Shown here piece after piece: positions 26,919 to 38,805 of a stretch of DNA of 64,000 nucleotides. The DNA comes from Terrabacter sp. Root85 (lineage in GTDB: Bacteria > Actinomycetota > Actinomycetes > Actinomycetales > Dermatophilaceae). Each line of letters starts with the position of its first letter. Position 1 is the stretch's first letter. The translations under genes and the position numbers were made by a program. The stretch spans positions 310,001 to 374,000 of the forward strand of contig NZ_LMIW01000008.1 in assembly GCF_001429185.1 (NCBI RefSeq). The letters run 5' to 3'. The notes beneath the pieces are model-generated. The model was not told the DNA's origin and did no database searches. It saw only the letters and a program-made list of their open reading frames with translations.

Positions 26919-27689
26919 ATGGCACGCCCTGCTCCCTCCAAGAAGCCCTCGCTGCGCGTCGAGCGCGCCCTGCAGCGATCCGGTCACCGACTCCTCGCCG
27001 GCATGGACGAGGTGGGCCGCGGCGCGCTCGCCGGGCCGGTCAGCGTCGGTATCGTCGTCATCGACGAGACGGTGCGCTCGGCGCCCATCGGCGTCAAGGA
27101 CTCCAAGCTCTTGACCGAGCGTGCTCGAACGGTGCTCGTGCCGCGCATCCAGCGCTGGGCCGTGGCCCACGCCGTCGGGCACGCGAGCCCTGACGAGATC
27201 GACGAGATCGGCATCATGGGTGCTTTGCGCCTTGCCGGGATGCGGGCCCTGGCGGGACTCGGGGTCGTGCCGGACCTCGTCATCCTCGACGGCAACCACG
27301 ACTGGCTGACGGCCCCGACCGAGGTGGGGCTCTTCGCCTTCGCCGACGAGTCCGCACCGACCACGCCGCCGGTGACGACGATGATCAAGGCCGACATGAA
27401 GTGTTCCTCGGTCGCGGCCGCGAGCGTGCTGGCCAAGGTCGAGCGCGACGACATGATGGTGGCCCTCTCGGCCGACCACCCGGCATACGGCTGGTCGCTC
27501 AACAAGGGCTACTCCGCGCCCGAGCACATGGACGCGCTGGCGCGTCTGGGCCCCTGCGAGCTGCACCGCCGCTCGTGGCGCCTGCCCGGCGTGTACGTGG
27601 GCGAGCCGGTCGAGGTGTTGAATGAGGGGACGGAGTCGTTCGCTCCGGCGCCCATCACGGCAGAGCAGACAGGGACGGCGATCAGGTGA
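26919..27689 (+). CDS. rnhB: Ribonuclease HII
   Basis: 256 residues. The active site is seen as [14 protein letters not shown] (Asp-Glu), [11 protein letters not shown] (Asp) and a later Asp in [21 protein letters not shown] and [11 protein letters not shown] are conserved. It cleaves RNA in RNA-DNA hybrids and misincorporated ribonucleotides. The stop overlaps the GTG of the DUF2469 gene. Confidence 0.95.
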
Positions 27690-28006
27690 GTTCGGAAGAT
27701 CTCGAGAAGTACGAGACCGAGATGGAGCTCCAGCTCTACAAGGAGTACCGCGACGTCGTCGGCCTCTTCACCCACGTCGTCGAGACCGAGCGCCGCTTCT
27801 ACCTCGCCAACTCGGTCGACGTGAAGGTGCGCTCCGACGGTGGTGAGGTCTTCTTCGACGTCACGATGGCCGACGCGTGGGTCTGGGACATCTACCGGCC
27901 GGCGCGGTTCGTCAAGAACGTGCGCGTCGTGACGTTCAAGGACGTCAACGTCGAGGAGCTGCCCAAGCCCGACATCAAACTGCCGGAGAACGGCGACTTC
28001 AGCTGA
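27686..28006 (+). CDS. DUF2469 protein
   Basis: 106 residues, the small conserved actinobacterial family DUF2469. [17 protein letters not shown] opens it and [27 protein letters not shown] closes it. Always found beside rnhB and yraN; function unknown. GTGA overlap with rnhB. Confidence 0.9.
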
Positions 28007-28108
28007 GCCGTCGGGCTTCGTCCACACCCCCTCGCCGATCGCGTATGCCGTCCACAGCCGCGCGCTGACGGGTGTCCTCGCCGGGTCGGCGCCGGGAGGG
28101 TGGTCGTC

Positions 28109-28474
28109 ATGGACCTCTCCACCCGCGCCCTCGGTGACTACGGCGAACGCCTCGCGTGCCGCTACCTGCTCGCTGAGGGCCTGACGATCATCGACCGCAA
28201 CTGGCGCTGCGCGCGCGGCGAGATCGACGTCGTCGCCGTCGACGGCCGCGAGCTCGTCGTCTGCGAGGTCAAGACCCGCACGAGCGAGGCCTTCGGCGCG
28301 CCGTTCGAGGCCGTGACGTGGCGCAAGCAGCGTCGGCTGCGGCGACTGGCCGGGCTCTGGCGCGACGACCACGACGAGCTCGCGCGGGGACTTGCCCTGC
28401 GCATCGACGTCATCTCGATCCTGCGGCCGCGCTCGGGACGGGCCAGCCTCCAGCACCTGCGCGGGGTGTGCTGA
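28109..28474 (+). CDS. YraN/UPF0102 family nuclease-like protein
   Basis: 121 residues. GDYGERLACRYLLAEG and the restriction-endonuclease-like core GEIDVVAVDGRELVVCEVKTR (Asp, Glu, Lys) are visible. The family has a Holliday-junction-resolvase-like fold; the role is not settled. ATG at 28109 has GGGAGGG 8 nt upstream; an in-frame GTG at 28100 would sit inside that site. The stop overlaps the comM start (TGATG). Confidence 0.9.
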   Translation: MDLSTRALGDYGERLACRYLLAEGLTIIDRNWRCARGEIDVVAVDGRELVVCEVKTRTSEAFGAPFEAVTWRKQRRLRRLAGLWRDDHDELARGLALRIDVISILRPRSGRASLQHLRGVC

Positions 28475-28730
28475 TGGGCACCGGCCTCGGCCGCACCCGG
28501 TCGGTCGGGCTGCGTGGTGTGCACGGGTTCGTCGTCGACGTCGAGGCGCACGTGACGCCCGGCCTGCCCGGCTTCGCGATCAGCGGGCTCGGGGACTCGG
28601 CGGTCAAGCAGTCGTCCGACCGGATCAAGGCCGCCGCCGCCCGCATCGACGACATGCCGGTCAGCCAACGTCGCGTCACGGTCAACCTCTCGCCCGCGGG
28701 GGAGCGCAAGATCGGCACCGGCTTCGACCT
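28474..28730 (+). pseudogene. comM: comM, 5' fragment (interrupted by integrative element)
   Basis: The first 85 codons plus two bases of the 86th codon of the ComM/YifB AAA+ helicase (N-terminal Lon-protease-like domain: RSVGLRGVHGFVVDVEAHV, PGLPGFAISGLGDSAVKQS, RRVTVNLSPAGERKIGTGFD). The gene breaks at 28730 and resumes at 36330. The joined sequence would be one 520-residue frame. The fragment is not closed by a stop: the frame runs on without interruption into the element's first gene, ending at 29550 (358 codons in all). It should be inactive as ComM. Confidence 0.93.
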
Positions 28731-28740
28731 CGGAAAGCAC
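28721..28740. other. attL site
   Basis: Chromosome side GCTTCGAC, crossover CT (28729-28730), then element side CGGAAAGCAC. The element side is the mirror arm of the sequence at attR. Confidence 0.8.
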
Positions 28741-28866
28741 AGTTTCCGACATACCAAACGACCGCTTGCTTTTGAGACGCGAATTCCATTGTGCTGCAGG
28801 GGAATTCGATGCCACATTTCCGCTCGCGACCACTCCGTGTCGGTGCACGGTGCCATGATGCGCTGC

Positions 28867-29550
28867 ATGACCGAGCCTTTATGGACAGACAAGCTGTCAG
28901 CGTGGTCCACCTTCGCCACAGCGGCATTGACGTTCCTGCTCTTCATTGCCGCGGTCGTGGCTGGAATCGCTGCTCTCCACACGTTAAGGGTCTCAAGGCA
29001 GGCAAGCGTCGCTGCCATGGCCGCCGCCGAGGCTGCTCGGGCCGCGAACGAACAGGCTCGCCTTGACAGCATCGAGCAGACTCGCCCGTACGTGTATGCC
29101 GAGATTGTCCCCAGCCTGACCGGCATCCACCACTACGACCTGAAACTTCGCAACAGCGGCAAGAGCGCTGCGCGTAATCTCACGCTCGACTTCTCTGACT
29201 GGCCCGACCCGCTCGATGAAGTGGCGACCTCAGTCCGCACTCTCTTCCAGACGCCTAGAACCCTCCCGCCCGAATGCAGCATCCGCGCCATCTGGCGACT
29301 CCAGGGCCAGTTCACGGATGGGAGCACAGAAGCCGGAATGCCGAAGGCGGGCCAGATCAGCGTCCTCTACACCAGTGACGACCCCTCGTGCCCCCAGTAT
29401 CGAGAGCACTTCGACGTCCAGATCAGCACGTCGGGCATGTGGCCGGTGGGCGAGGAAGGGCCGACGCCTCAGGGGATGAACGGCGACGTCAAGGCCTTCT
29501 ACGTCTTGGGCCAGAGGCTGCTCCGTCGAGTCGCCGAACTCGGACGCTGA
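28867..29550 (+). CDS. Membrane-anchored element protein of unknown function
   Basis: 227 residues. One N-terminal membrane segment (about residues 12-35, ATAALTFLLFIAAVVAGIAA), a short Ala-rich coiled-coil stretch, then a soluble domain of about 170 residues with beta-rich character (YVYAEIVPSL, YDLKLRNSGKSAARNLTLDF). This architecture is frequent in phage and island cargo; I cannot assign a function. ATG at 28867 is the last of three in-frame ATGs; CATGAT just before it may serve as a -10. The frame is also open upstream into comM. Confidence 0.65.
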   Translation: MTEPLWTDKLSAWSTFATAALTFLLFIAAVVAGIAALHTLRVSRQASVAAMAAAEAARAANEQARLDSIEQTRPYVYAEIVPSLTGIHHYDLKLRNSGKSAARNLTLDFSDWPDPLDEVATSVRTLFQTPRTLPPECSIRAIWRLQGQFTDGSTEAGMPKAGQISVLYTSDDPSCPQYREHFDVQISTSGMWPVGEEGPTPQGMNGDVKAFYVLGQRLLRRVAELGR

Positions 29551-29592
29551 CCACCCGGGGCCGAGAGGCACGTCACCCCCGACCCCGGGTGG
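29551..29592. terminator. Hairpin between convergent element genes
   Basis: CCACCCGGGG (29551-29560) pairs perfectly with CCCCGGGTGG (29583-29592); 22-nt loop. It begins right after the stop of the membrane protein gene and precedes the end of the convergent cysteine-rich gene. Confidence 0.65.
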
Positions 29593-29642
29593 CGTTCAGA
29601 GGCCCCTGAGGGCTTGGGCGAGATGCGCCCACGGCGCGGTGC

Positions 29643-30689
29643 TCAGAGGTGGTCGAGTCCGACGTGCTCCCACGGCGTGCGGCTGCCGGCCAGGGGTTTC
29701 TCGCCGCGGCGGTGGGCGCGGTGAGAGAGTGCACCCCAGCCGATCAGACCCTGCACGTCTCCGAGGCTGAGGCGGTCGGCCTCCTCGCCGCGCCCGGTCG
29801 CGCGCAGGTGCTCGGTGAGCGCTCGCTCCATCGCGCTGGGGCCCATCGCCCCGACGTGCTCGACGGCGGCCGCGCAGGGGGCGCAGAGGTGCCCCACGAG
29901 GTAGTCCGGGGAGGCGCGCCCACCGAGGGAGCCGACCGAGGCGCGCTTGGGCTCCCACACCCGCGAGGCGGCGGCTTTGTGACCGCCGAGGCGGCTGACC
30001 TCCTGGGCTGGCAGCGTCTGGGCCTCGACCCCGCACATGAGGCACCCGTGGATCGCGAACACCTCTCCGGCTCTCTGCGGGAACGGCGGGAACGGCGGGG
30101 CGAGCCGCACGTCTGGCGCGGTGGCGGCGACCATCTCGGCCAGCATCGCGCCGTAGGCCTGACGCAGCTGTGCCCTCGCCCCGAGGCGGACGTGCGCCCA
30201 CCGGTACGGCGAGCAGGTCGCCGGGCTGGCCCCCGCCTCGATCAGCGGCACGAACCGGGCGACCCAGCGCACTTGGGCGCCGGGCACGGACAGGTGCCGC
30301 AGCATCAGGTCGACCCTCGGCGGGGCGGGCTTGCCGATGACCTCGAGCGCGAGCAGCGCGCACTCGACCCGGTGCCTCGCGGTGTCGGGGCCGAGCCGAG
30401 CGGCGAGCCCGGGGTTGGCGTCGACGATCTGCTCGGCCTCGGAGGCGATGCGGGCGCACGAGGCGCAGCGGACGAAGGACAGCGGCCCACCGCGCGGCGT
30501 CCCGCCCGGCGCGGCCGGCGGCTGGTCGGCGCGACCGAGGGTCTCCACGGTGACGACCTTCGGGCCCTCGGCCACGGCCACGCCGCAGGCGAGGCAGGCG
30601 AGGTGTCCCTCAGGCAGCCGGACGGGGCTGTCGGGCACCTGCAGGTGCACCGGGTCGAGGTCGGCGGTGACCGCTGTGGTCCGGGTCAT
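29643..30689 (-). CDS. Cysteine-rich (zinc-ribbon-like) element protein
   Basis: 348 residues with four CxxC pairs: CLACG, CASC, CLMCG and CAPC, two near the N-terminus and two in the C-terminal half, suggesting two structural zinc sites. The middle (residues about 90-210) is helical with no motif I recognise. The ATG at 30689 is coupled to the preceding gene (ATGA). A longer frame extends upstream but would swallow that gene. Nucleic-acid binding is a guess only. Confidence 0.65.
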   Translation of the reverse strand: MTRTTAVTADLDPVHLQVPDSPVRLPEGHLACLACGVAVAEGPKVVTVETLGRADQPPAAPGGTPRGGPLSFVRCASCARIASEAEQIVDANPGLAARLGPDTARHRVECALLALEVIGKPAPPRVDLMLRHLSVPGAQVRWVARFVPLIEAGASPATCSPYRWAHVRLGARAQLRQAYGAMLAEMVAATAPDVRLAPPFPPFPQRAGEVFAIHGCLMCGVEAQTLPAQEVSRLGGHKAAASRVWEPKRASVGSLGGRASPDYLVGHLCAPCAAAVEHVGAMGPSAMERALTEHLRATGRGEEADRLSLGDVQGLIGWGALSHRAHRRGEKPLAGSRTPWEHVGLDHL

Positions 30690-30910
30690 CGCCGGGCCTG
30701 CCGTACCGGCTTCGGCTCTCCGTGAGCCCGGCGGATGCGGCCCCCGCAGAGGGCGACGGTGTCCTGCGGGGTGGCTGTCTCGATCGTCCAGCACGGCTCC
30801 TGCCGCCGGGCGTCGTGCTTCGCGCACGGGACGGCGAGCACGGCGAGGAACGCGCGCCGCTGGGTCGCCCTGACGGCCAGGTCGTCGAGCAGTGGTCGGG
30901 GTCTGGGCAT
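30686..30910 (-). CDS. Small element protein with Cys/His motif
   Basis: 74 residues. CAKHD...C...C spacing (CAKHDARRQEPCWTIET, then ALCGGR) may bind a metal. ATG at 30910 follows GAGGC. Overlaps the cysteine-rich gene by four bases (ATGA), so the two are translated together. Family not recognised. Confidence 0.55.
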   Translation of the reverse strand: MPRPRPLLDDLAVRATQRRAFLAVLAVPCAKHDARRQEPCWTIETATPQDTVALCGGRIRRAHGEPKPVRQARR

Positions 30911-31249
30911 GGGGCTGCCTCGCTTTTCGCGACTCAGCCGAGGCCCTGCTGCCATCCCGGCGGTGGTGGGTTGTGTGCCCGCTCCGCGCTCGGCCCGTGA
31001 AAGGAAGATCGTCGCGGAGCGGACGCCTCAACGGTAACCCCGAGGACCGACGGCGAAGGGGCATTCGCGCCGGGCCGTGCGAGCCGCGCAGCGTACTACG
31101 CGCCGGATGTCTCAGGGTGACCGAATGACATGACTGAGGCCGTAGGGACGCTTCGGTCTTGAGCAGAGCGGGGCGCTCTACTCCGTCTGGCCGTCCTCAC
31201 ATGCCGATGTGCGGACGTTGTGAATCCGCTGTCGTCTACGCTGCTGAAC
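30911..31249. other. Intergenic region between divergent element genes
   Basis: 339 nt without a convincing gene. It holds copy 1 of the 41-bp repeat (31068-31108) and a short hairpin AGAGC-GGGG-GCTCT around 31164-31177. TACGCT at 31237-31242 is spaced as a -10 for the OB/S1-like gene. The region probably contains the promoters for both flanking transcripts. Confidence 0.5.
31068..31108. repeat. 41-bp element repeat, copy 1 (operator-like)
   Basis: Matches copy 2 (31604-31644) at 36 of 41 positions in direct orientation. Its core GCGTACTACGC (31091-31101) is an 11-bp dyad (GCGTA-C-TACGC) identical in both copies, which looks like a repressor site. It lies about 160 nt upstream of the minus-strand cysteine-rich operon and about 140 nt upstream of the plus-strand gene at 31250. 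Confidence 0.75.
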
Positions 31250-31528
31250 GTGGCAAATGAGGTGCGGTGCTTTCACTCACACCCGCCCAAGCGTGAGACA
31301 CGGCTGTCGGACGGGACTGAACATCGCGGGGTCGTCGTGTGCCTGCACCCGTTCGGGCTGGGTGTGTTTCTTCCGGACCAGGAGACCTTTGGGCATGTCG
31401 ATACCCCGATGATGGGCCGGTCCGCGACCTCGGGGCTTGACGACTATCCCCCGGTTGGCAGCGTCGTGTTGTTGACGGTGCTGGGCTACTCGGGCTTGGA
31501 GCAACTGCGCCTATCGGTCAACACCTGA
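31250..31528 (+). CDS. Small OB/S1-like element protein
   Basis: 92 residues from the GTG at 31250 (102 from GTG at 31220). The central part, GVVVCLHPFGLGVFLPDQE and later VGSVVLLTVLGYSG, follows the strand order of an S1/OB nucleic-acid-binding fold (hydrophobic strand, turn with FGxGVF, then GS-V-x-V-L). This is a fold-level guess. 31250 was preferred because TACGCT lies 7 nt upstream, the spacing of a leaderless actinobacterial transcript. Confidence 0.5.
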   Translation: MANEVRCFHSHPPKRETRLSDGTEHRGVVVCLHPFGLGVFLPDQETFGHVDTPMMGRSATSGLDDYPPVGSVVLLTVLGYSGLEQLRLSVNT

Positions 31529-31603
31529 TCGTCCGCTCGTGCCGCGATGCGTGCGGTCGCGCCAATGACAGACGCAGCCGGGGTCCGTCTAGACCGTGCG
31601 GGT

Positions 31604-31644
31604 CGCCGGGCCGTGCGGGCTGCGTAGCGTACTACGCCCCCGAT
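31604..31644. repeat. 41-bp element repeat, copy 2 (operator-like)
   Basis: Second copy, 536 bp after the first, with the same GCGTACTACGC dyad (31627-31637). It ends 40 nt before the ATG at 31685 and so covers that gene's likely promoter. Confidence 0.75.
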
Positions 31645-31684
31645 ACCCCTCCGGGCATACTTGGAGCCGGAGAAGGAGGTCACC

Positions 31685-31873
31685 ATGACGACCGCAACGG
31701 AGACGACCGCTCGACCGGAACACCGGCCACACCGGCAGCCCTCTCAAAGGGCTCTCGCCACACGCTCGCTCACGGCCGCCCTGCGCCTGACCGGGGACGA
31801 CAGGCGTGAGGCCCTGCGGGCGCACTTCGACGAGTTCGTGCCCCCGCGCCGGGCGACGTGCCCGCTCCGGTGA
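31685..31873 (+). CDS. Small basic element protein
   Basis: 62 residues, Thr/Arg-rich at the N-terminus, then LTAALRLTGDDRREALRAHFDEFVPP. A very strong Shine-Dalgarno (AAGGAGGT, 31673-31680) precedes the ATG, and an operator-like repeat covers the promoter region; both argue that it is really expressed. Function unknown; a small regulator is possible. Confidence 0.55.
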   Translation: MTTATETTARPEHRPHRQPSQRALATRSLTAALRLTGDDRREALRAHFDEFVPPRRATCPLR

Positions 31874-31884
31874 GGGCTTCAGTT

Positions 31885-31951
31885 CTTCGGTCTTCAGTCT
31901 TCAGTCCTTGAGACAAGTCTCAAGGGGACTGAAGACTGAAGGAGACCGAAG
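31885..31951. terminator. Very long imperfect hairpin
   Basis: Left arm 31885-31914 (starts CTTCGGTCT, ends TTGAGAC) pairs with right arm 31917-31951 (starts GTCTCAA, ends AGACCGAAG), about 30 bp with two small bulges and a loop of only two bases. The left arm also contains the direct repeat TCTTCAG. It separates the convergent 62-residue gene and the ATPase gene. Confidence 0.75.
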
Positions 31952-31967
31952 CGGCTGTGCGCACCAC

Positions 31968-33221
31968 TCATCCGGGGGCGTCGGCGGGCCAGTAGTGCAG
32001 GCGTCGGTAGTACGGCTTGTCGCAGAGGTTGCAGTCGGTCAGGCACTTCTCCTCGCGGACCAAACCGCGGTCGAGTGCCAACGCCCTGCCCTCCAGGTTC
32101 AACGCCTTCGAGCCAGCCTCGATGTTGTCGGTGAGCTCCTGACCGTGCGCGCCGGGATGCTCCGCCACGTAGGCGGCGGTGCGCAGGGCAACGGCCTCGA
32201 CCTCCTCAGCTCGGGTCTTCTTCGGGGCGCCGCCTCTGGCGGCGGCACCCGTGGGCTCGGCCACCAACCGGCCCTCGACAAGGTCCACTCTCATCGGCGG
32301 GATCGCGACTCCACCGAGGCGTGGGACGACGCCGAACCGGCGCGTCGAGGTGGGGTTGTCGGGGTTGTCCGACGAGTACGTCCAGAGCCCGTCCGCGCCG
32401 GCCTGAGCCTCGACACCTCCCATCAGGTGGCCACCGGCCAGGGTGTTGTGACCGGTCACGAGGGCGCTGGGCACGTCGACCTCGCGCATCAGCCGACGGA
32501 AGGCGGCGTACCACTTGCCGTACCAGTCGGTTCCCTTCCCCGCCGTGTTGAGGATCGCGGTGAGCCCGTCCACCATCACGATGAACGGCGTGGTGTCGTC
32601 CCTCCCCTCACACTCCTGGCAGAACGCCAGCCGGTGCGCCCACCAGTCGTAGATGTCCGGGTCGGTCAGATCGAGGATCTGCGGGCCACCGAGGGTCTCG
32701 AGGTGGTCCACGACGACATGGGCCCCGACGACCACGCCCTGCGCTTCGAGCTCCGCCTCGAAGTCGGCAGCAAGCGTCTCCACGTTGATCAGATAGATAT
32801 CAGCCTCCGCCTCGGCGAGGTCTGGCACCTCGAAGCGGTCGAGGAAGCGCCGCCCGGGCGTGATTAAAGCCGCCGTCAGGTCGATGATGAGGGTCGTCTT
32901 CCCGGCCTTGGGGTTGCCGCCGACCATCGGCATCGTGCCGAAGGCCCAGACGTCCTGCACCAGCCACCTCTTCGGCTCGCCGTTGCGACCACCGTGGCCG
33001 AGCGGCAGCGGCTCCGGCATCGCGGCGTAGGTCCCCAGCAGCCGGTCGCGGACGCGCTGCAGCATCCGCCCGGTCAGCACCACGCCGTCGTCGTCGCTGA
33101 TGAGGCCTTCGCTTGCCCGTATGCGCATCGCTGCCTGCTTCTCGGATGACGCTCCCGCCCACGCGGCCGCCCACTCGCTCATCGAGAAGGTCTCGGTGAC
33201 TCCACCGTGGATGATCCTCAT
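31968..33221 (-). CDS. RepA-like AAA ATPase
   Basis: 417 residues. Walker A GGNPKAGKTTL at about residues 101-111, a Walker B-like strand FIVMVDGLTAIL, and DDTTPF/SALVTGHNTLAGGH in the position of the sensor region. This is the RecA-like core of AAA_25/RepA hexameric helicase-type proteins often found in actinobacterial islands and phages. The C-terminus looks like a winged-helix region ending with CxxC (CNLCDKPYY). ATG at 33221 with GGGAGG upstream, and overlapped by a tiny coupled frame. A role in element replication is likely but inferred. Confidence 0.75.
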   Translation of the reverse strand: MRIIHGGVTETFSMSEWAAAWAGASSEKQAAMRIRASEGLISDDDGVVLTGRMLQRVRDRLLGTYAAMPEPLPLGHGGRNGEPKRWLVQDVWAFGTMPMVGGNPKAGKTTLIIDLTAALITPGRRFLDRFEVPDLAEAEADIYLINVETLAADFEAELEAQGVVVGAHVVVDHLETLGGPQILDLTDPDIYDWWAHRLAFCQECEGRDDTTPFIVMVDGLTAILNTAGKGTDWYGKWYAAFRRLMREVDVPSALVTGHNTLAGGHLMGGVEAQAGADGLWTYSSDNPDNPTSTRRFGVVPRLGGVAIPPMRVDLVEGRLVAEPTGAAARGGAPKKTRAEEVEAVALRTAAYVAEHPGAHGQELTDNIEAGSKALNLEGRALALDRGLVREEKCLTDCNLCDKPYYRRLHYWPADAPG

Positions 33222-33262
33222 CGGCCGGCCTCCCGGTCGTCGTTGTTCTGCTTGTCGTTCAC
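33218..33262 (-). CDS. 14-codon leader frame coupled to the ATPase gene
   Basis: A GTG at 33262 with a good Shine-Dalgarno (AAGGAG, complementary strand of 33268-33273) opens a 14-codon frame (VNDKQNNDDREAGR) whose TGA overlaps the ATG of the ATPase gene (ATGA). Together with the hairpin just upstream this looks like translational coupling or a leader peptide rather than chance, but it is short. Confidence 0.4.
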   Translation of the reverse strand: MNDKQNNDDREAGR

Positions 33263-33286
33263 GTGCTCTCCTTGTGCATGGTGGGT

Positions 33287-33312
33287 AGGAGCCCCGGTTC
33301 TCCGGGGCTCCT
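33287..33312 (-). terminator. Hairpin inside the element's minus-strand operon
   Basis: AGGAGCCCCGG (33287-33297) pairs perfectly with CCGGGGCTCCT (33302-33312) with a 4-nt loop. It lies between the zinc-finger gene and the leader frame of the ATPase gene, so it may terminate or attenuate transcription before the ATPase. Confidence 0.7.
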
Positions 33313-33325
33313 GCTTTGTGTGGGG

Positions 33326-33685
33326 TCAGGCGCTCTGCCGGGCGACAACCGCGCGCAGGTTCTCCAGCGCGGCAAGGCACTCGGCGGCGATCTCCGCGAG
33401 CGTGGGTGGCACGGGCCGAAGGTGCGCGGCCTGCCACCGAGGGTCAGCCGTCCCCAGCGCGAAGCCGGTCCGGTGCCAGCGCATGTAGTGCATCGGGCAC
33501 AGGCCGCGGGTCTTCGAGCGTGTGTGGCAGCCGTCGACGGCGCACGAGCGGGCCTCCCGCTCCCGGCGCGCCGCCACGGCGGCGATGAGGCGCTGGTTGT
33601 CGAGGTAGCGCCCGTAGCCGCCGGGCAGCCGGTGCACGGGGTAGACCTCGGCCAGCATCTCGTCCATCGAGCGGGCGGCGCTCAT
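33326..33685 (-). CDS. Zinc-finger element protein
   Basis: 119 residues. The central motif CAVDGCHTRSKTRGLC with PMHYMRWHRTG has the C-x4-C-x9-C-x2-H spacing found in small phage and island zinc-finger/HNH-like proteins. No HNH catalytic triad is visible, so DNA binding is more likely than cleavage. ATG overlaps the stop of the 37-residue frame (ATGA). Confidence 0.65.
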   Translation of the reverse strand: MSAARSMDEMLAEVYPVHRLPGGYGRYLDNQRLIAAVAARREREARSCAVDGCHTRSKTRGLCPMHYMRWHRTGFALGTADPRWQAAHLRPVPPTLAEIAAECLAALENLRAVVARQSA

Positions 33686-33795
33686 CGCTCCCCGCCTCCC
33701 TCGGCCGCCTCGTCCGGCACGAACGGCCTCAGCAGCTCAACGACCTTCGCCACCTGCTCGTCGCTCAGCGGCGGCAGGGTCGGCTGGGTGCTCAC
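33682..33795 (-). CDS. 37-residue element protein
   Basis: GTG at 33795 overlaps the stop of the HTH gene (GTGA), and its own TGA overlaps the start of the zinc-finger gene (ATGA). The peptide has a helical core, PLSDEQVAKVVELLRPFV. The two overlaps on both sides are the evidence that it is a real gene. Confidence 0.6.
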   Translation of the reverse strand: MSTQPTLPPLSDEQVAKVVELLRPFVPDEAAEGGGER

Positions 33796-34133
33796 TCCTG
33801 CTCACCGCCCTCGACGATGCTCCCGGCGTTGACGGCGGAGGACAGGTCGACGATGCGGGACTTGGGGCCGTAGGCGTACCGGCCGGACCGGACCTTGGTC
33901 GACGGCATGGTGCGCAGCATCCGGTCCACCTCATCGAGGTCGACCACGACCTGGCGGGCGCCGATGCGGTAGCCGGTGATGTAGCCGTTGCCGATCCAGT
34001 TGCGGATCGTTCGCTCGGTGACCTGCGCGTGCTTCCCGGCCTGTGCCAGGGTGACGAGACGACGGCGCGTCTCGCGGTTCTGTGGCTGGGCCGGCTGGGC
34101 GGACCGGGTGAGGTCGGCATTGGACTGGGACAT
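33792..34133 (-). CDS. Helix-turn-helix (excisionase/MerR-like) protein
   Basis: 113 residues. Residues about 25-75 form an excisionase-type winged HTH: LVTLAQAGKHAQVTERTIRN, WIGNGYITGYRIGARQVVVD, LDEVDRML. In integrative elements such proteins act as recombination directionality factors or as regulators. ATG at 34133 has GGAGGAG 8 nt upstream; an ATG 24 nt further upstream is possible. First gene of the coupled minus-strand operon. Confidence 0.75.
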   Translation of the reverse strand: MSQSNADLTRSAQPAQPQNRETRRRLVTLAQAGKHAQVTERTIRNWIGNGYITGYRIGARQVVVDLDEVDRMLRTMPSTKVRSGRYAYGPKSRIVDLSSAVNAGSIVEGGEQE

Positions 34134-34443
34134 GACAGGGCTCCTCCGTGGAGCCACGCTGTTTCACCGAGCGCGTGGCCGCTGGGGGAGCCTTACGTCG
34201 TGCTGGCCCTCGCCAATATGGGGCCTGTCCCTTTCGCACGGAGCACCGTCTGGATGTCGAGGCGCGGTGCTCATTTCCTCAAGCCCAAGTCTACCCGACC
34301 CGCACAGGGTCACCTAGGGCCACCAGAGGCGCTGTGCGCCCTCCTACCGGCCTCTCAGCCCTGCCGGGTATCCCTGCCGCACCCATGACGCGGGAGCCCG
34401 CACAGGGCGAATTTCCGCTGGCAGCAAGGGGATTCGTTGGGGC
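34134..34443. other. Intergenic region between HTH operon and integrase operon
   Basis: 310 nt with no gene I can support. It should carry the promoter of the HTH operon on the minus strand; TAGACT (complement of 34292-34297) is a candidate -10 without a good -35. CGAATTTCC (34408-34416) and GGGGATTCG (34428-34436) form an imperfect hairpin at the end of the integrase operon. Confidence 0.45.
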
Positions 34444-34836
34444 TCAGTCGGACTCGGGCAGCCGCAGCTTCTCGAGCACGTCCTCGTCGAAGTCGGTCTG
34501 CGGCCCGTAGGTCTTCTCGGTCGTCGCGAGGTTGATCAGGGTCGGGTCCCAGTCGTCCCGAGGCGGGCTGGACCACATGCACCAGAACTTGAGCGTGCGC
34601 GGCCCGAGGCGCCCGTCGGCGAACAGGTAGAGGTTCGTCGTGCCGTAGAACTTGCCGGGCTCGCCGAACGTGCGGATCACGCGGCCGGCTCGCACGTAGT
34701 CCTCGTGGGTCATGCCCTCGGTCCGGTCCTGAACGACGTACCAGTGCGGCGCCGAGTCGGCGTAGGTCTTGGCCCAGGTCCACGACAGCGTCGGCGCGAG
34801 GTCCAGCCACCACGCCAAGTCCCCGCGGTCACTCAC
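34444..34836 (-). CDS. Conserved-type protein coupled to the integrase
   Basis: 130 residues; Trp- and Tyr-rich: WWLDLAPTLSWTWAKTYADS, HWYVVQDRTEGM, RVIRTFGEPGKFYGTTNLYL, KFWCMW. I recall similar proteins beside serine integrases of actinobacterial elements but cannot name a function. GTG at 34836 overlaps the integrase stop (GTGA), so it is produced together with the integrase; a partner or directionality role is possible but unproven. Confidence 0.6.
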   Translation of the reverse strand: MSDRGDLAWWLDLAPTLSWTWAKTYADSAPHWYVVQDRTEGMTHEDYVRAGRVIRTFGEPGKFYGTTNLYLFADGRLGPRTLKFWCMWSSPPRDDWDPTLINLATTEKTYGPQTDFDEDVLEKLRLPESD

Positions 34837-36305
34837 GCCGTGGCCTCGACCTCGACCTCGACGGGCCGGCCGAGCAGGTCGGTCAGCCGCAGGCGGTCCT
34901 TCGTCCACGGCACGCCCTTCCTGGTGGCGCGTAGCACCTCCACCCGGAGCACGGCGGCGGTCACGGCGCGCTGGACCTCGACCGGAGCCGCCTTGAACGC
35001 CGCGCCGGGGTCGACCGCGCCGAGGATCGGGTTCGTCGTGCTCCGGGCCACGGCATCGGCCAGCCGGGTCTCAACCTGCTCCATCTCGGCCTCGACCGTT
35101 GCCGTCGCCTTCGCCAGCTGACTGCCGGTGATCTTGCCGAGCGCGTAGTCCGTCTCGAACTGGTCGAGGCGGGTGGTCAGCACGGCCCGGCGCTCCCGGT
35201 CGGCGCTGATGAGGTCGCTGGTGTCGCTCGGCGTCAGTCCGGCGATGACCCGAGGGTCGCGGATGAGCGCGGCGACGACCTCACGGACGTACTTGTCGGT
35301 GTCCTTCGAGCCGATCGTCACGTGGGTCGCGACCGCGCACCGGTAGTAGTTGAACTGCGTCGGCTCCTTGGTCTTGTTCGGGCGCGTGCTGCTGCTGGGT
35401 CGCATGACGGCACCGCACTCGCCGCAGGTGTAGAGGTTCGTCCCGATCCACCGCGAGCGGCTCGTGTGGTTCGCGGCCTTGCGGCTCGGTTCGGTGAGCA
35501 GGGTGTGAACGGCGTGCCAGGTGTCCTCGTCGATGATCGCTGGCCACTTGGCCTTGGCGATGATCTGCGGGTCGCGGGTCCGCACCCGGCCGGTGCTGAC
35601 CTTCCCTGCGTTGCGGGGTCGGAGCAGCATCTCCCGCAGTGCAATCGGGCTCCACTCGTTGCCTGAGGTGGTGACGATCTTCCGGTCGTTGAGGACGGCG
35701 GCGAGGGAGCGCAGCGAGCGACCGTTGAGGATGGCAGTGGTCATCTCGCGGATGACCTCGGCCTCCTTCTGGTTGACGGTCACGCCGTCCTTGGCGTAGC
35801 CGAAGGGCCGCCGGCCTCCGCGCCAGAGCCCGGCCTCCGCCGCCTGCGCCTTCTGGGATCGCAGCCGATCACGGGTGTTGTCGACCTCGGCTCGAGCGGC
35901 TGCACCGAGCATCCGGGCCACCATCCGGCCACTCGAGGTGGAGAGGTTGAGGTCACCGGACTTGACCGTCTGGACCTGGAGCTCACGAGCCTCCGCCAGC
36001 GAGATGAACTCCTCCAGTTCGGTCGGGCGTCGGTGCAGCCGGTCGGTGTGCCACGCGACGATGGCCTTGACTTCACCCCGCCGTACCGCGTCGAGCATGG
36101 TGCGGTAGCCAGGTCGCCACTTGCCGCTGGCGGCGCTGATGTCGTTGTCGACGTATACCCCGACGACGTCCCACCCGAGGCGCTCGGCGAGGGCTCGGCA
36201 GTCGGCCTCCTGCCGCTCGACGCCGAGGCCGGCACCCTCCCTGTCTCGGCTGATTCGTGCGTAGATCGCGGCTTGGACGGGGGCTCTCGGCGGGTGTTTT
36301 TCCAT
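34833..36305 (-). CDS. Large serine recombinase (integrase)
   Basis: 490 residues. N-terminal resolvase domain with catalytic Ser19 in YARISRDREG and the Arg-containing block WHTDRLHRRPTELEEF; recombinase domain with GRRPFGYAKDG; zinc-ribbon with CGECG and a later Cys in YYRCAVATH; C-terminal coiled coil (LDQFETDYALGKITGSQL). It catalyses attP x attB recombination. The gene starts 24 bp from the crossover, reading away from it, as in many phages and islands. The target is comM. Confidence 0.95.
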   Translation of the reverse strand: MEKHPPRAPVQAAIYARISRDREGAGLGVERQEADCRALAERLGWDVVGVYVDNDISAASGKWRPGYRTMLDAVRRGEVKAIVAWHTDRLHRRPTELEEFISLAEARELQVQTVKSGDLNLSTSSGRMVARMLGAAARAEVDNTRDRLRSQKAQAAEAGLWRGGRRPFGYAKDGVTVNQKEAEVIREMTTAILNGRSLRSLAAVLNDRKIVTTSGNEWSPIALREMLLRPRNAGKVSTGRVRTRDPQIIAKAKWPAIIDEDTWHAVHTLLTEPSRKAANHTSRSRWIGTNLYTCGECGAVMRPSSSTRPNKTKEPTQFNYYRCAVATHVTIGSKDTDKYVREVVAALIRDPRVIAGLTPSDTSDLISADRERRAVLTTRLDQFETDYALGKITGSQLAKATATVEAEMEQVETRLADAVARSTTNPILGAVDPGAAFKAAPVEVQRAVTAAVLRVEVLRATRKGVPWTKDRLRLTDLLGRPVEVEVEATA

Positions 36306-36311
36306 ATGTCC

Positions 36312-36317
36312 ATACTA
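36312..36317 (-). promoter_or_regulatory. Candidate -10 of the integrase gene
   Basis: TAGTAT on the minus strand, 6 nt before the ATG, which is leaderless spacing. The -35 region would lie in comM in the integrated state and in the left end of the element after excision, so promoter strength may change with recombination. No strong -35 is visible in either arrangement. Confidence 0.35.
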
Positions 36318-36340
36318 GTGCTTTGCCCTGGCCATCTTCG
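36318..36340. other. attR site
   Basis: Element arm GTGCTTTGCC (36318-36327), crossover CT (36328-36329), then comM sequence GGCCATCTTCG. Confidence 0.8.
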
Positions 36341-37635
36341 TCGCGGTCGCCGCCGCGATGCGGCTGGTGCCACCCACGGTGGTGCGCGACCTCGTGCACA
36401 TCGGAGAGGTGGGTCTCGACGGGACGGTGCGACCCGTCCCCGGCGTGCTGCCCCTGGTCCGGGCGGCCGCGATGACCGGGGTGCGTCATGTCGTCGTCCC
36501 CGTCGCCAACGCCGGCGAGGCCCGTCTCGTCTCGGGCACCCGCGTCCACCCCGTGGCCGACGTGACCGAGCTCGTCCGGCGCTATGACGCGCTGGGCAAG
36601 GGCCGGGGCGTCGACGAGGTTCCGGTGCCGCTCGTCGTGCCGCCTCCTCCCGAGGCGGTGCGCGACCTCAGCGAGGTCGTCGGGCAGGCCGACGCGAAGC
36701 TCGCCCTCGAGATCGCGGCGGCCGGCGGTCACCACCTGCTGCTCGCCGGTCCACCCGGTGCAGGCAAGACGATGCTCGCCGAACGGCTGCCGGGACTGCT
36801 GCCGGCCCTCGACGAGGCCGAGTCGATGGAGGTCACGGCGATCCACTCCGTCCTGGGTGCCCTCGGCGCCGGTGAGGACGTGCGACTCATCTCGAGACCA
36901 CCGTTCGTCGCGCCGCACCACGGCGCGTCACAGGCCGCGGTCATCGGTGGCGGCAGCGGACACATCCGGCCCGGCGCCATCACCCAGGCCCACCGAGGAG
37001 TCTTGTTCCTCGACGAGACCCCCGAGTTCGACAAGGGGGTCCTGCAGTCGCTGCGCACGCCGCTCGAGCGCGGGTCCGTCTCCATCGCCCGCGCCCAGGA
37101 GACCGTGACGTTCCCGTCGCGCTTCCAGCTCGTCCTCGCCGCCAACCCGTGTCCGTGCGGCAACGGGTGGGGCAAGGGTCTCGACTGCACGTGCACGCCG
37201 CTCATGCGCCGCTCCTACTTCGGCAAGCTGAGCGGGCCGCTCCTCGACCGGGTCGACCTGCAGGTCCATGTCCAGCCTCCGGGCCTCTCGATGGCGGGGG
37301 CACCCGCGGGCGAGTCGACGACGTCGGTGGCCGCGCGGGTGGCGGGGGCGCGCGAGGCACAGGGTGAGCGCTGGTGCGAGGTGCTCGAACGCCGTCGCGG
37401 GGTCAACGCCGACGTCCCCGGCTCGGTCCTGCGCGGTCGGCCGTGGCGGCTCCCGACCTCGGCGACGACCACCCTCGACCGCGCCCTCGAGAGCGGCTCG
37501 CTCAGCCTCCGCGGCTATGACCGCACCCTGCGCTGCGCCTGGACCATCGCCGACGTCATGGGGCTGCAACGCCCCGGGCGCGAGGAGGTCGACCTCGCAC
37601 TGTCGCTGCGCCACCGGGCCGGGGTGGCCGCATGA
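36330..37635 (+). pseudogene. comM: comM, 3' fragment
   Basis: Codons 86 to 520 of ComM. After the rest of the N-terminal domain (VVRDLVHIGEVGLDGTVRPV) come the AAA+ core with Walker A GPPGAGKTMLAERLPG, Walker B VLFLDETPEF, the zinc-like NPCPCGNG...CTCTPL segment, and the arginine finger region SGPLLDRVDLQV. An internal ATG at 36358 could start a truncated 425-residue protein containing the intact ATPase core, but it would lack the N-terminal domain and there is no clear Shine-Dalgarno. ComM promotes branch migration during natural transformation. Confidence 0.93.
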
Positions 37636-37698
37636 ACGTGCGAGGCCGGCGCCGTTGGGCGGCTCACGGTCGCGTGGGCTCGATGGTGGGGGTGCGCC

Positions 37699-38805
37699 GT
37701 GGACGCTGACCGGTTCGCCCGAGCGGCGCTGTCGCGTCTCGCGGAGCCGTGCGACAAGGAGGTGCCCGGTCTCGTCGACGAGCTCGGAGCCGTCGAGACG
37801 TTCGAGCGCATCCGCGCCGGCCGGGGCACCTTGACCCGGTTCCGGGCCCGGCTGGCCACTCTCGACACCGAGCGCGACCTCGACATCGCCGCGAGGGTCG
37901 GCGCGCGGGTCGTCGTGCCCGGCGACGACGAGTGGCCGGAGCGGCTCGCGCAGATCCCCGTACCGCCCTACTGCCTCTGGGTCCGCGGGCCGCTCGACCT
38001 TGCCGAGACGGTGGAGCGCTCCGTCGCGATCGTCGGCTCCCGGACCGCCACCGGCTACGGCGAGCAGGTCGCCTCTGACATCGCAGCCGGCGTCGCGCGG
38101 AGGGGATGGAGCGTCGTGTCCGGCGCCGCGTTCGGCATCGACGGCAGTGCCCACCGCGGTGCCCTGGCCGTCGACGGAGCGACCATCGCCGTCCTGGCCG
38201 GAGGGGTCGAGCGGCCCTACCCCTCGGCGCATGCCACCCTCATCTCACGGATCGCCCGCGACGGACTCGTCGTGTCGGAGGTGGCCCCCGGGTCGGCGCC
38301 GATGAAGTCACGGTTCCTCGCCCGCAACCGGCTCATCGCCGGGATGACGCGCGGCACGATCGTCGTCGAGGCCGACCTGCGCTCCGGCTCGCGCAACACC
38401 GTCAAGCACGCGATCGAGGCCGGCCGCCACGTCGGCGCCGTGCCCGGTCCGACGACGTCGATGACGTCGGCCGGCTGTCACCAGGAGATCCGCGACGGCC
38501 GGGCGGTCCTCGTCACGAGTGCCGACGAGGTCATCGACCTCGTGGGCGACCTCGGCGACGACGCGTGCGAGCCGGCCCGCGGGCCGGTCCGGCCGGAGGA
38601 CGACCTGCCACCTCTCGATGCCTCGGTCCTCGAGGTCGTGCCCTTCCGTTCCGGCCTGACCCTCGACGCCGTCGTCCGCCAGGTCGCCCTCGCGCCGCTC
38701 ATGGTCCGGGCGGCGCTCGGACGCCTCGAGCGGAAGGGCCTCGTGACCGAGTCCGCCGGCACCTGGCGCAAACGCCCCCAGCCCCGCCAAGCCAAGCCCG
38801 ACTGA
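37699..38805 (+). CDS. dprA: DNA processing protein DprA
   Basis: 368 residues. Rossmann-like DprA fold with VAIVGSRTATGYGEQVASDI, VVSGAAFGIDGSAHRGAL, VLAGGVERPYPSAH, SRFLARNRLIAGM and the C-terminal winged helix (RAALGRLERKGLVTE). It loads RecA on incoming single strands. It normally follows comM directly; here a 63-nt gap separates them. GTG start. Confidence 0.95.
   Translation: MDADRFARAALSRLAEPCDKEVPGLVDELGAVETFERIRAGRGTLTRFRARLATLDTERDLDIAARVGARVVVPGDDEWPERLAQIPVPPYCLWVRGPLDLAETVERSVAIVGSRTATGYGEQVASDIAAGVARRGWSVVSGAAFGIDGSAHRGALAVDGATIAVLAGGVERPYPSAHATLISRIARDGLVVSEVAPGSAPMKSRFLARNRLIAGMTRGTIVVEADLRSGSRNTVKHAIEAGRHVGAVPGPTTSMTSAGCHQEIRDGRAVLVTSADEVIDLVGDLGDDACEPARGPVRPEDDLPPLDASVLEVVPFRSGLTLDAVVRQVALAPLMVRAALGRLERKGLVTESAGTWRKRPQPRQAKPD

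Follow-up and report, generated by a model that had tools for sequence, protein, structure and literature searches.

The AbaR islands of Acinetobacter insert into comM by transposition with duplication of the target, and in Listeria the A118 prophage, which has a serine integrase, lies within the competence gene comK and permits its exact restoration. Described here is an element that splits comM in a 64,000-nucleotide stretch of Terrabacter sp. Root85 (contig NZ_LMIW01000008.1, positions 310,001 to 374,000). The whole stretch is termed the window. Very probably the insertion is an integrative element of the large serine recombinase type, belongs to a family of small elements in which no phage structural gene is recognised among the proteins scanned, and entered comM by recombination of the attachment sites attP and attB at the dinucleotide CT. 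According to Durrant et al. (2022; PMC10083194), 12.4% of the site-specific serine integrases that they predict have a magnesium-chelatase gene as their target. PMC9203015 places the serine recombinase sr1WO of phage WO in a Wolbachia magnesium chelatase gene, with the gene halves flanking it.

The comM insertion and its attachment sites

The comM open reading frame begins at the ATG of 28474, is interrupted after 28730 and continues from 36330. The following features are found at the junctions.

28731..36329, no strand: integrated element, 7,599 bp, attL to attR (restored frame, CCT at both ends, site unoccupied in 8 of 8 congeners)
28474..28730, + strand: comM 5′ part, codons 1–85 and two bases of Leu86
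36330..37635, + strand: comM 3′ part, Mg_chelatase and Mg_chelatase_C domains
28729..28730, + strand: crossover dinucleotide CT, attL
36328..36329, + strand: crossover dinucleotide CT, attR
28731..28755, + strand: attP distal arm, CGGAAAGCAC...GACATAC, dyad with 36303–36327
36303..36327, + strand: attP integrase-proximal arm, CATATGTC...GTGCTTTGCC, overlaps the integrase start codon

The frame-exact insertion and the predicted attB, attP and core are shown at the level of the sequence. Joining 28730 to 36330 reproduces the unchanged 520-residue frame of the original prediction, with one terminal stop, and places the element in the Leu86 codon. The shared CT of that prediction is correct, with the refinement that the strict repeat common to both ends is CCT (28728–28730 and 36327–36329). 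CT forms its last two bases and at the same time positions 1 and 2 of the Leu86 codon. The rebuilt attP displays the inverted repeat GTGCTTT/AAAGCAC centred on CT, as had been claimed, and in addition an outer pair, CATATGTC / GACATA, with a similar pair in relatives. Symmetry about CT amounts to 15 of 25 pairs, and 11 other centres, at offsets of −4 to +7 bp, give 8 at most. By chance, 15 symmetric pairs arise in 604 of 200,000 joins made at random, and within the window 192 of 63,948 centres attain that number. A dinucleotide present at both ends and at the centre of a pseudo-palindromic attP, here CT, is the pattern by which a large serine recombinase element is recognised.

The empty site is found in relatives, where the original prediction had proposed looking for an intact comM. 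All eight other genomes of the genus searched show an open comM frame across the site (G005 is only 74% complete). The predicted 15-mer join, TTCGACCTGGCCATC, is exact in two of the eight (G002 and G007) and near variants are present in the other congeners. The join, the dyad and the empty sites thus support the attB, attP, CT crossover and element limits first proposed. The target is a YifB/ComM magnesium-chelatase-like gene, as PF01078 scores above the cut-off and the gene is uninterrupted in relatives; the comM 3′ part alone gives 337.7 bits for TIGR00368 (cut-off 362.4). No tRNA gene is found within 27000–38000.

The comM 3′ half of G000 has a ratio of nonsynonymous to synonymous substitution rates (dN/dS) of 0.079 against G002 and 0.047 against G007, and the G002–G007 pair gives 0.064; the comparison covers the 3′ half only, and the G000 row starts one codon earlier, which the alignment absorbs. 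This half gives no sign of decay, and a recent or a reversible insertion would both fit. Directly downstream of comM, 37699–38805 is presumably a DprA-like frame, and upstream, 28100–28474 is one that we take to be YraN-like. The host also encodes a ComEC-type protein.

Insertion sites in comM and cpaF

A survey of 396 genomes of the order gave a comM match at E ≤1e-40 in 382. Split candidates were chosen from the per-genome table of this survey and 50 handles were rechecked. comM is split in at least 15 of the 396: G000, G003, G083, G193, G218, G232, G240, G315, G336, G481, G497, G502, G506, G521 and G544. Fourteen of these belong to the 382, and G521 passed a looser limit only. The count is a lower bound, as G193, G232 and G502 were absent from the first filter and surfaced later; in G232 and G502 the break is seen from the 5′ side only. 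Excluded before counting were G201 (neighbouring pieces that suggest a frameshift), G206, G312 and others like them (divergent yet continuous), and the contig-edge cases G272, G338, G342, G387 and G460, of which G387 might be a real split. A serine recombinase adjoins the break in 13 of the 15. For G481 and G544, both split at site C below, no such gene was found in the flanks read, up to about 3 kb beside the breaks. Family genomes outside the 396 contain five further split comM genes (G048, G103, G105, G149 and G184). The insertions fall at four positions.

Site A: Leu86 codon of comM
Site B: about codon 490
Site C: about codon 316; all six two-ended cases that have a recombinase show the core GA within CTCGAC/GA
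Site D: about codon 218–239; one case

Sites A and C fall within conserved coding motifs, G-F-D-L at A and the FLDE codons at C, the latter presumably Walker B. In the six two-ended cases at site C the integrase lies on the 5′ side in four and on the 3′ side in two; another core placement ties in G315 and G506. Close integrases, with end branches of 0.06–0.10, are found at site C in three genomes of different families (G083, G240 and G336; loci L054, L056 and L060), which suggests recent spread between families. In G003, of the same genus as the window, site A is uninterrupted and comM is broken near codon 490 by a different serine-recombinase element (L011, 3900–12000), with frames that we take to be methylase-like and capsid-like. 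The comM of G521, an uncultured Isoptericola, is seemingly broken twice (L069/L070). Its 5′ piece ends near codon 88 beside an integrase, its 3′ piece runs from near codon 312 on another contig, and codons 89–310 were not found.

Eight two-ended elements at site A, namely those of the window, G149, Mobilicoccus caccae, M. pelagius, Arthrobacter wenxiniae, Microbacterium sp. ASV81, Sinomonas sp. ASV486 and Isoptericola halotolerans, each give back an attB whose CT falls in that Leu codon. In five, the window included, the integrase is next to the 3′ half of comM, and in three (G149, A. wenxiniae and I. halotolerans) it is next to the 5′ half. Read outward from the integrase, the core is thus CT for the window element and AG for these three. 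Both orientations at one site are what serine integrases predict. According to PMC3783163, citing Ghosh 2003 and Smith 2004, att sites align either way and recombination is efficient only when they are parallel about the dinucleotide. The agreement on CT among site-A elements is partly built in, because attB fixes the shared dinucleotide; independent support comes from attP dyads, which centre on CT in four elements (15, 16, 16 and 16 of 25 pairs).

An integrase tree of 59 of the 97 collected integrases, made by a quick method and with several forks open or unstarred, requires at least four orientation changes among 13 site-A rows. Site B forms one clade. The integrases of the window and of G149 belong to a starred group of 12 rows that stands apart from the other site-A rows, and the ten further rows of this group are CpaF or unassigned loci.

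The integrases nearest to that of the window (up to 56% identity, L072–L076 among them) sit in a CpaF/TadA-type gene, not in comM. A scan with an alignment of five integrases found 145 loci, of which 80 named ones were kept; an earlier scan with the window integrase alone gave 123 pattern stretches and no relative. The targets are CpaF/TadA-like in 27 loci, comM in 16 and unassigned in 37. These loci were chosen by similarity to one query and hence are not independent, nor are all distinct events, as L098, L102, L081 and L105 match genomes already under G handles and L084 and L085 have identical scores. The CpaF/TadA assignment rests on the type II/IV secretion ATPase domain PF00437 in 4 of 4 pieces scanned (L073, L075, L076 and L080) and on tblastn for the others. 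The gene piece lies within 400 bp of the integrase start in 25 of the CpaF/TadA loci and at the far end only in two. Insertions in cpaF fall near codons 155, 233 and 320.

Compared with the comM attB, the intact cpaF of the host agrees at 18 of 32 bases and has the same CT core. In the cpaF locus 31 of 7,610 positions reach 18 or more matches (best 19), and a shared attB sequence as the explanation of moves between comM and cpaF is suggestive only. The cpaF insertion of Microbacterium oxydans BEL163 (L072) has AT as best-scoring core, with 19 of 25 pairs. AT is self-complementary, and orientation should therefore be unconstrained there.

Genes of the element and the zinc-knuckle family

Nine open reading frames of the element were scanned for families with Pfam, NCBIfam and PHROG. 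They are listed here from the integrase end, together with a frame that reads across attL.

34833..36305, − strand: large serine recombinase (integrase), 490 amino acids (aa); Resolvase PF00239, Recombinase PF07508, phrog_95 integrase
34444..34836, − strand: small conserved protein, 130 aa, overlaps the integrase stop; homologues adjoin the integrase in G149 and Nocardioides donggukensis
33792..34133, − strand: Xis-like helix-turn-helix (HTH) protein; phrog_66, E 2.3e-8; matches to HTH_17 and TIGR01764 under the cut-off; its cluster covers 11 of 13 loci
33326..33685, − strand: HNH/zinc-type small protein; phrog_5351, phrog_1271; no Pfam match
31968..33221, − strand: AAA_25 ATPase, RepA-helicase-like; PF13481; clustered in 9 of 13 loci
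31685..31873, + strand: small open frame, groups with one frame of L074
31220..31528, + strand: open frame, 102 codons, no family match
29643..30689, − strand: orphan double zinc-knuckle protein, family marker; two CxxCG...CxxC...WxH modules; alignment of 11, cluster of 13 loci
28867..29550, + strand: predicted membrane protein, left-end cargo; no Pfam, NCBIfam or PADLOC match, two weak PHROG matches
28474..29550, + strand: frame open for 358 codons from the comM start, crossing attL and continuing into the cargo gene

The integrase shows both large serine recombinase domains above the cut-off (PF00239, E 1.5e-29; PF07508, E 5e-17), in accord with the serine integrase originally predicted. An ARISRD motif from residue 16 is presumably catalytic, and the start codon is 22 bases away from the core. 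The 130-aa protein has 34–36% identity to part of a methyltransferase in five Microbacterium phage records. The Xis-like HTH protein, judged by its profile match, is a candidate directionality factor or regulator. In a profile comparison the AAA_25 ATPase weakly resembles the plasmid RepA helicase (1g8y, E 0.0027). Four CxxC knuckles are displayed by the zinc-knuckle protein across its two repeated modules, and its match to Phage_tail_X (E 0.095) is below the cut-off.

Among the nine frames no capsid, portal, terminase or tail gene is clearly recognised, only weak PHROG matches being present. There is also no relaxase or TraB/FtsK-type translocase, by which an integrative and conjugative element, or one of the actinomycete type, would be identified. 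No tns match is found in them, nor a 5-bp target duplication, the shared bases being CCT only. A defence-system search matched none of the four window proteins given and three of six from relatives. The frame open from the comM start to 29550 would yield a ComM-cargo fusion, which may be due to chance in GC-rich DNA.

The zinc-knuckle protein marks a family of elements. Thirteen loci, picked for carrying it, were compared; the HTH protein forms a cluster across 11, an integrase across 11 and the AAA protein across nine. Two of the loci are in comM (the window and G149). Nine are in CpaF, from Microbacterium (three), Pseudoclavibacter, Curtobacterium, Brevibacterium, Demequina, Nocardioides and one metagenome locus. 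The others are from Actinomadura (target unknown) and from G008 of the window's genus, for which no related integrase was found within the 18 kb read. In G008, where comM is intact, an Mrr-type nuclease lies between the zinc-knuckle and AAA_25 relatives (L243).

The elements measure about 7.3–9.0 kb (six with both ends mapped). They have the integrase at one end, the zinc-knuckle protein near the other, and HTH and usually the RepA-like ATPase between. Cargo varies: an AbiV-type HEPN protein, a restriction-enzyme-like protein and an Mrr-type nuclease are recognised once each. No capsid, terminase or relaxase gene is recognised among the proteins scanned, which for PHROGs were ten proteins of the relatives, not all of their frames.

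The zinc protein is rare and patchily distributed: among 186 genomes of the family three carry it, and in a sample of 394 genomes of the class two do, with one of the two partial. It shows no match in 50,697 phage records or 72,556 plasmid records, and a search of viral contigs by one peptide pattern gave no relative in four stretches. The AAA protein has no match in the phage records, and the integrase is matched at 54 loci in viral contigs. The AlphaFold model of the zinc protein is fairly confident (predicted local distance difference test score 85.9, predicted template modelling score 0.58). A known fold was sought with Foldseek and rejected, as none of 74 Protein Data Bank (PDB) and none of 156 viral matches reached E ≤0.001. 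The best PDB sequence relative is no better than E 0.21.

Mechanism, alternatives and described systems

The element very probably entered comM by conservative attP × attB recombination at CT in the Leu86 codon, and the right-end integrase, by presumed catalysis, would hold it in place. The Xis-like HTH protein or another element factor may permit exact excision, restoring comM. Thereafter the RepA-like ATPase probably replicates the element, which probably spreads as a satellite or by mobilisation, these two steps being the least certain. While the element is integrated, ComM would be lost, if it acts here as elsewhere. Status as a phage satellite would fit the RepA-like ATPase and the size.

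Several observations count against this explanation. Alternative joins of the window element ends, within 30–40 bp, reach 14 of 25 pairs, with 2 shared bases only. The attP of M. caccae, M. pelagius and ASV81 score just 10, 9 and 10 of 25 at CT, and other placements equal or beat CT there; Sinomonas is outside the CT scoring. The integrase zinc-ribbon PF13408 scores 20.9 bits (Pfam cut-off 25.3). The HTH protein gives an excisionase-like match (E 2.3e-8) and, more weakly, one to the terminase small-subunit phrog_57 (E 1.2e-4), and the cargo protein weakly matches the tail-fibre phrog_38233 (E 0.0017). The dN/dS values, from the 3′ half only, are explained by recent insertion as well as by reversibility. 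The element is known here from assembled sequence. As no transfer gene was found among the frames scanned, we infer its mobility from distribution.

Why comM is the target can be explained in more than one way. It stands at about even chances that comM is a safe harbour, an old, conserved, non-essential gene that offers the same codons, with any effect on DNA uptake a by-product. The position of sites A and C in conserved motifs and the comM match in 382 of 396 genomes agree with this, as does the use of many unrelated genes as integrase targets. Against it, one integrase group is found in two DNA-uptake-linked families, comM (16 of 80) and CpaF/TadA (27 of 80), at several positions each, a counterpoint of limited weight as the 80 loci are not independent and 37 have unassigned targets.

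A bolder proposal, which we hold to be possible and rather doubtful, is that a distinct non-phage family has integrases that move between comM and CpaF/TadA because blocking uptake prevents replacement of the element by element-free DNA. TadA1/CpaF of Micrococcus luteus is reported in PMC8467076 to be essential for transformation/pilus assembly, so that comM and CpaF would belong to a single pathway; the word comM is absent from the main text of PMC8467076.

That the element is a decayed prophage and not of a distinct family is unlikely. Integrases of this group occur widely in actinophages, with matches in 1,292 phage records, the G003 comM element combines a serine recombinase with a frame taken to be capsid-like, and the window shows the weak terminase small-subunit and tail-fibre matches given above. 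However, distant genera share a comparable set of genes in which no structural gene is recognised (ten proteins of the relatives scanned with PHROGs), and the zinc protein finds no counterpart in phage or plasmid records nor, with a single peptide pattern, in viral contigs.

Somewhat less likely still is a reversible competence switch, in which cue-driven excision would restore ComM by analogy with comK in Listeria. Exact restoration is possible by sequence, the 3′ half is undecayed and a ComEC-type protein is present, but a recent insertion would give the same signal and we know of no natural transformation in the window's genus. Tn7-like or other transposition, suggested by the use of the same gene by AbaR islands, can practically be dismissed, as no Tn7 protein is found among the nine frames, the ends share CCT only, and ends and integrase fit serine recombination.

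If mobile elements repeatedly settle in DNA-uptake genes, they shape which actinobacteria are transformable. A matched set is at hand, consisting of an integrase with predicted attP, attB and core, empty-site sister species, and relatives in the opposite orientation at the same site. Target choice, orientation control and the competence hypothesis are thus directly testable.

Compared with described systems, the AbaR islands share the target gene with the window element and use other machinery. The Listeria A118/comK prophage is alike in having a serine integrase inside a competence gene with exact restoration possible, but its excision is regulated, whereas the window element is known by exact restorability alone and has no recognised phage structural genes. 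Mycobacteriophage serine integrases, for example those of Kumao and prophiGD54-2, are homologous to that of the window (about 36% identity) and, unlike it, are carried by phages of 70–79 kb. The original prediction set a serine integrase in comM apart from known cases, a view that fails against Durrant et al. (2022; PMC10083194), where the elements are alike in recombinase type, target gene family and breakage of the target. Phage WO sr1WO, as described in PMC9203015, is likewise similar in its serine recombinase, in the gene family by name and in the flanking halves, but WO is a full tailed prophage and the window element is without a recognised structural gene. Serine recombinases in comM-type genes are therefore already published in these two sources. 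Added here to the main-text account of PMC10083194 are codons, cores and both orientations for actinobacteria. The sequence comparisons thus contribute a map of comM sites with orientations, the connection of comM and CpaF as targets of a single integrase group and, without a claim that it is unpublished, the zinc-protein element family.

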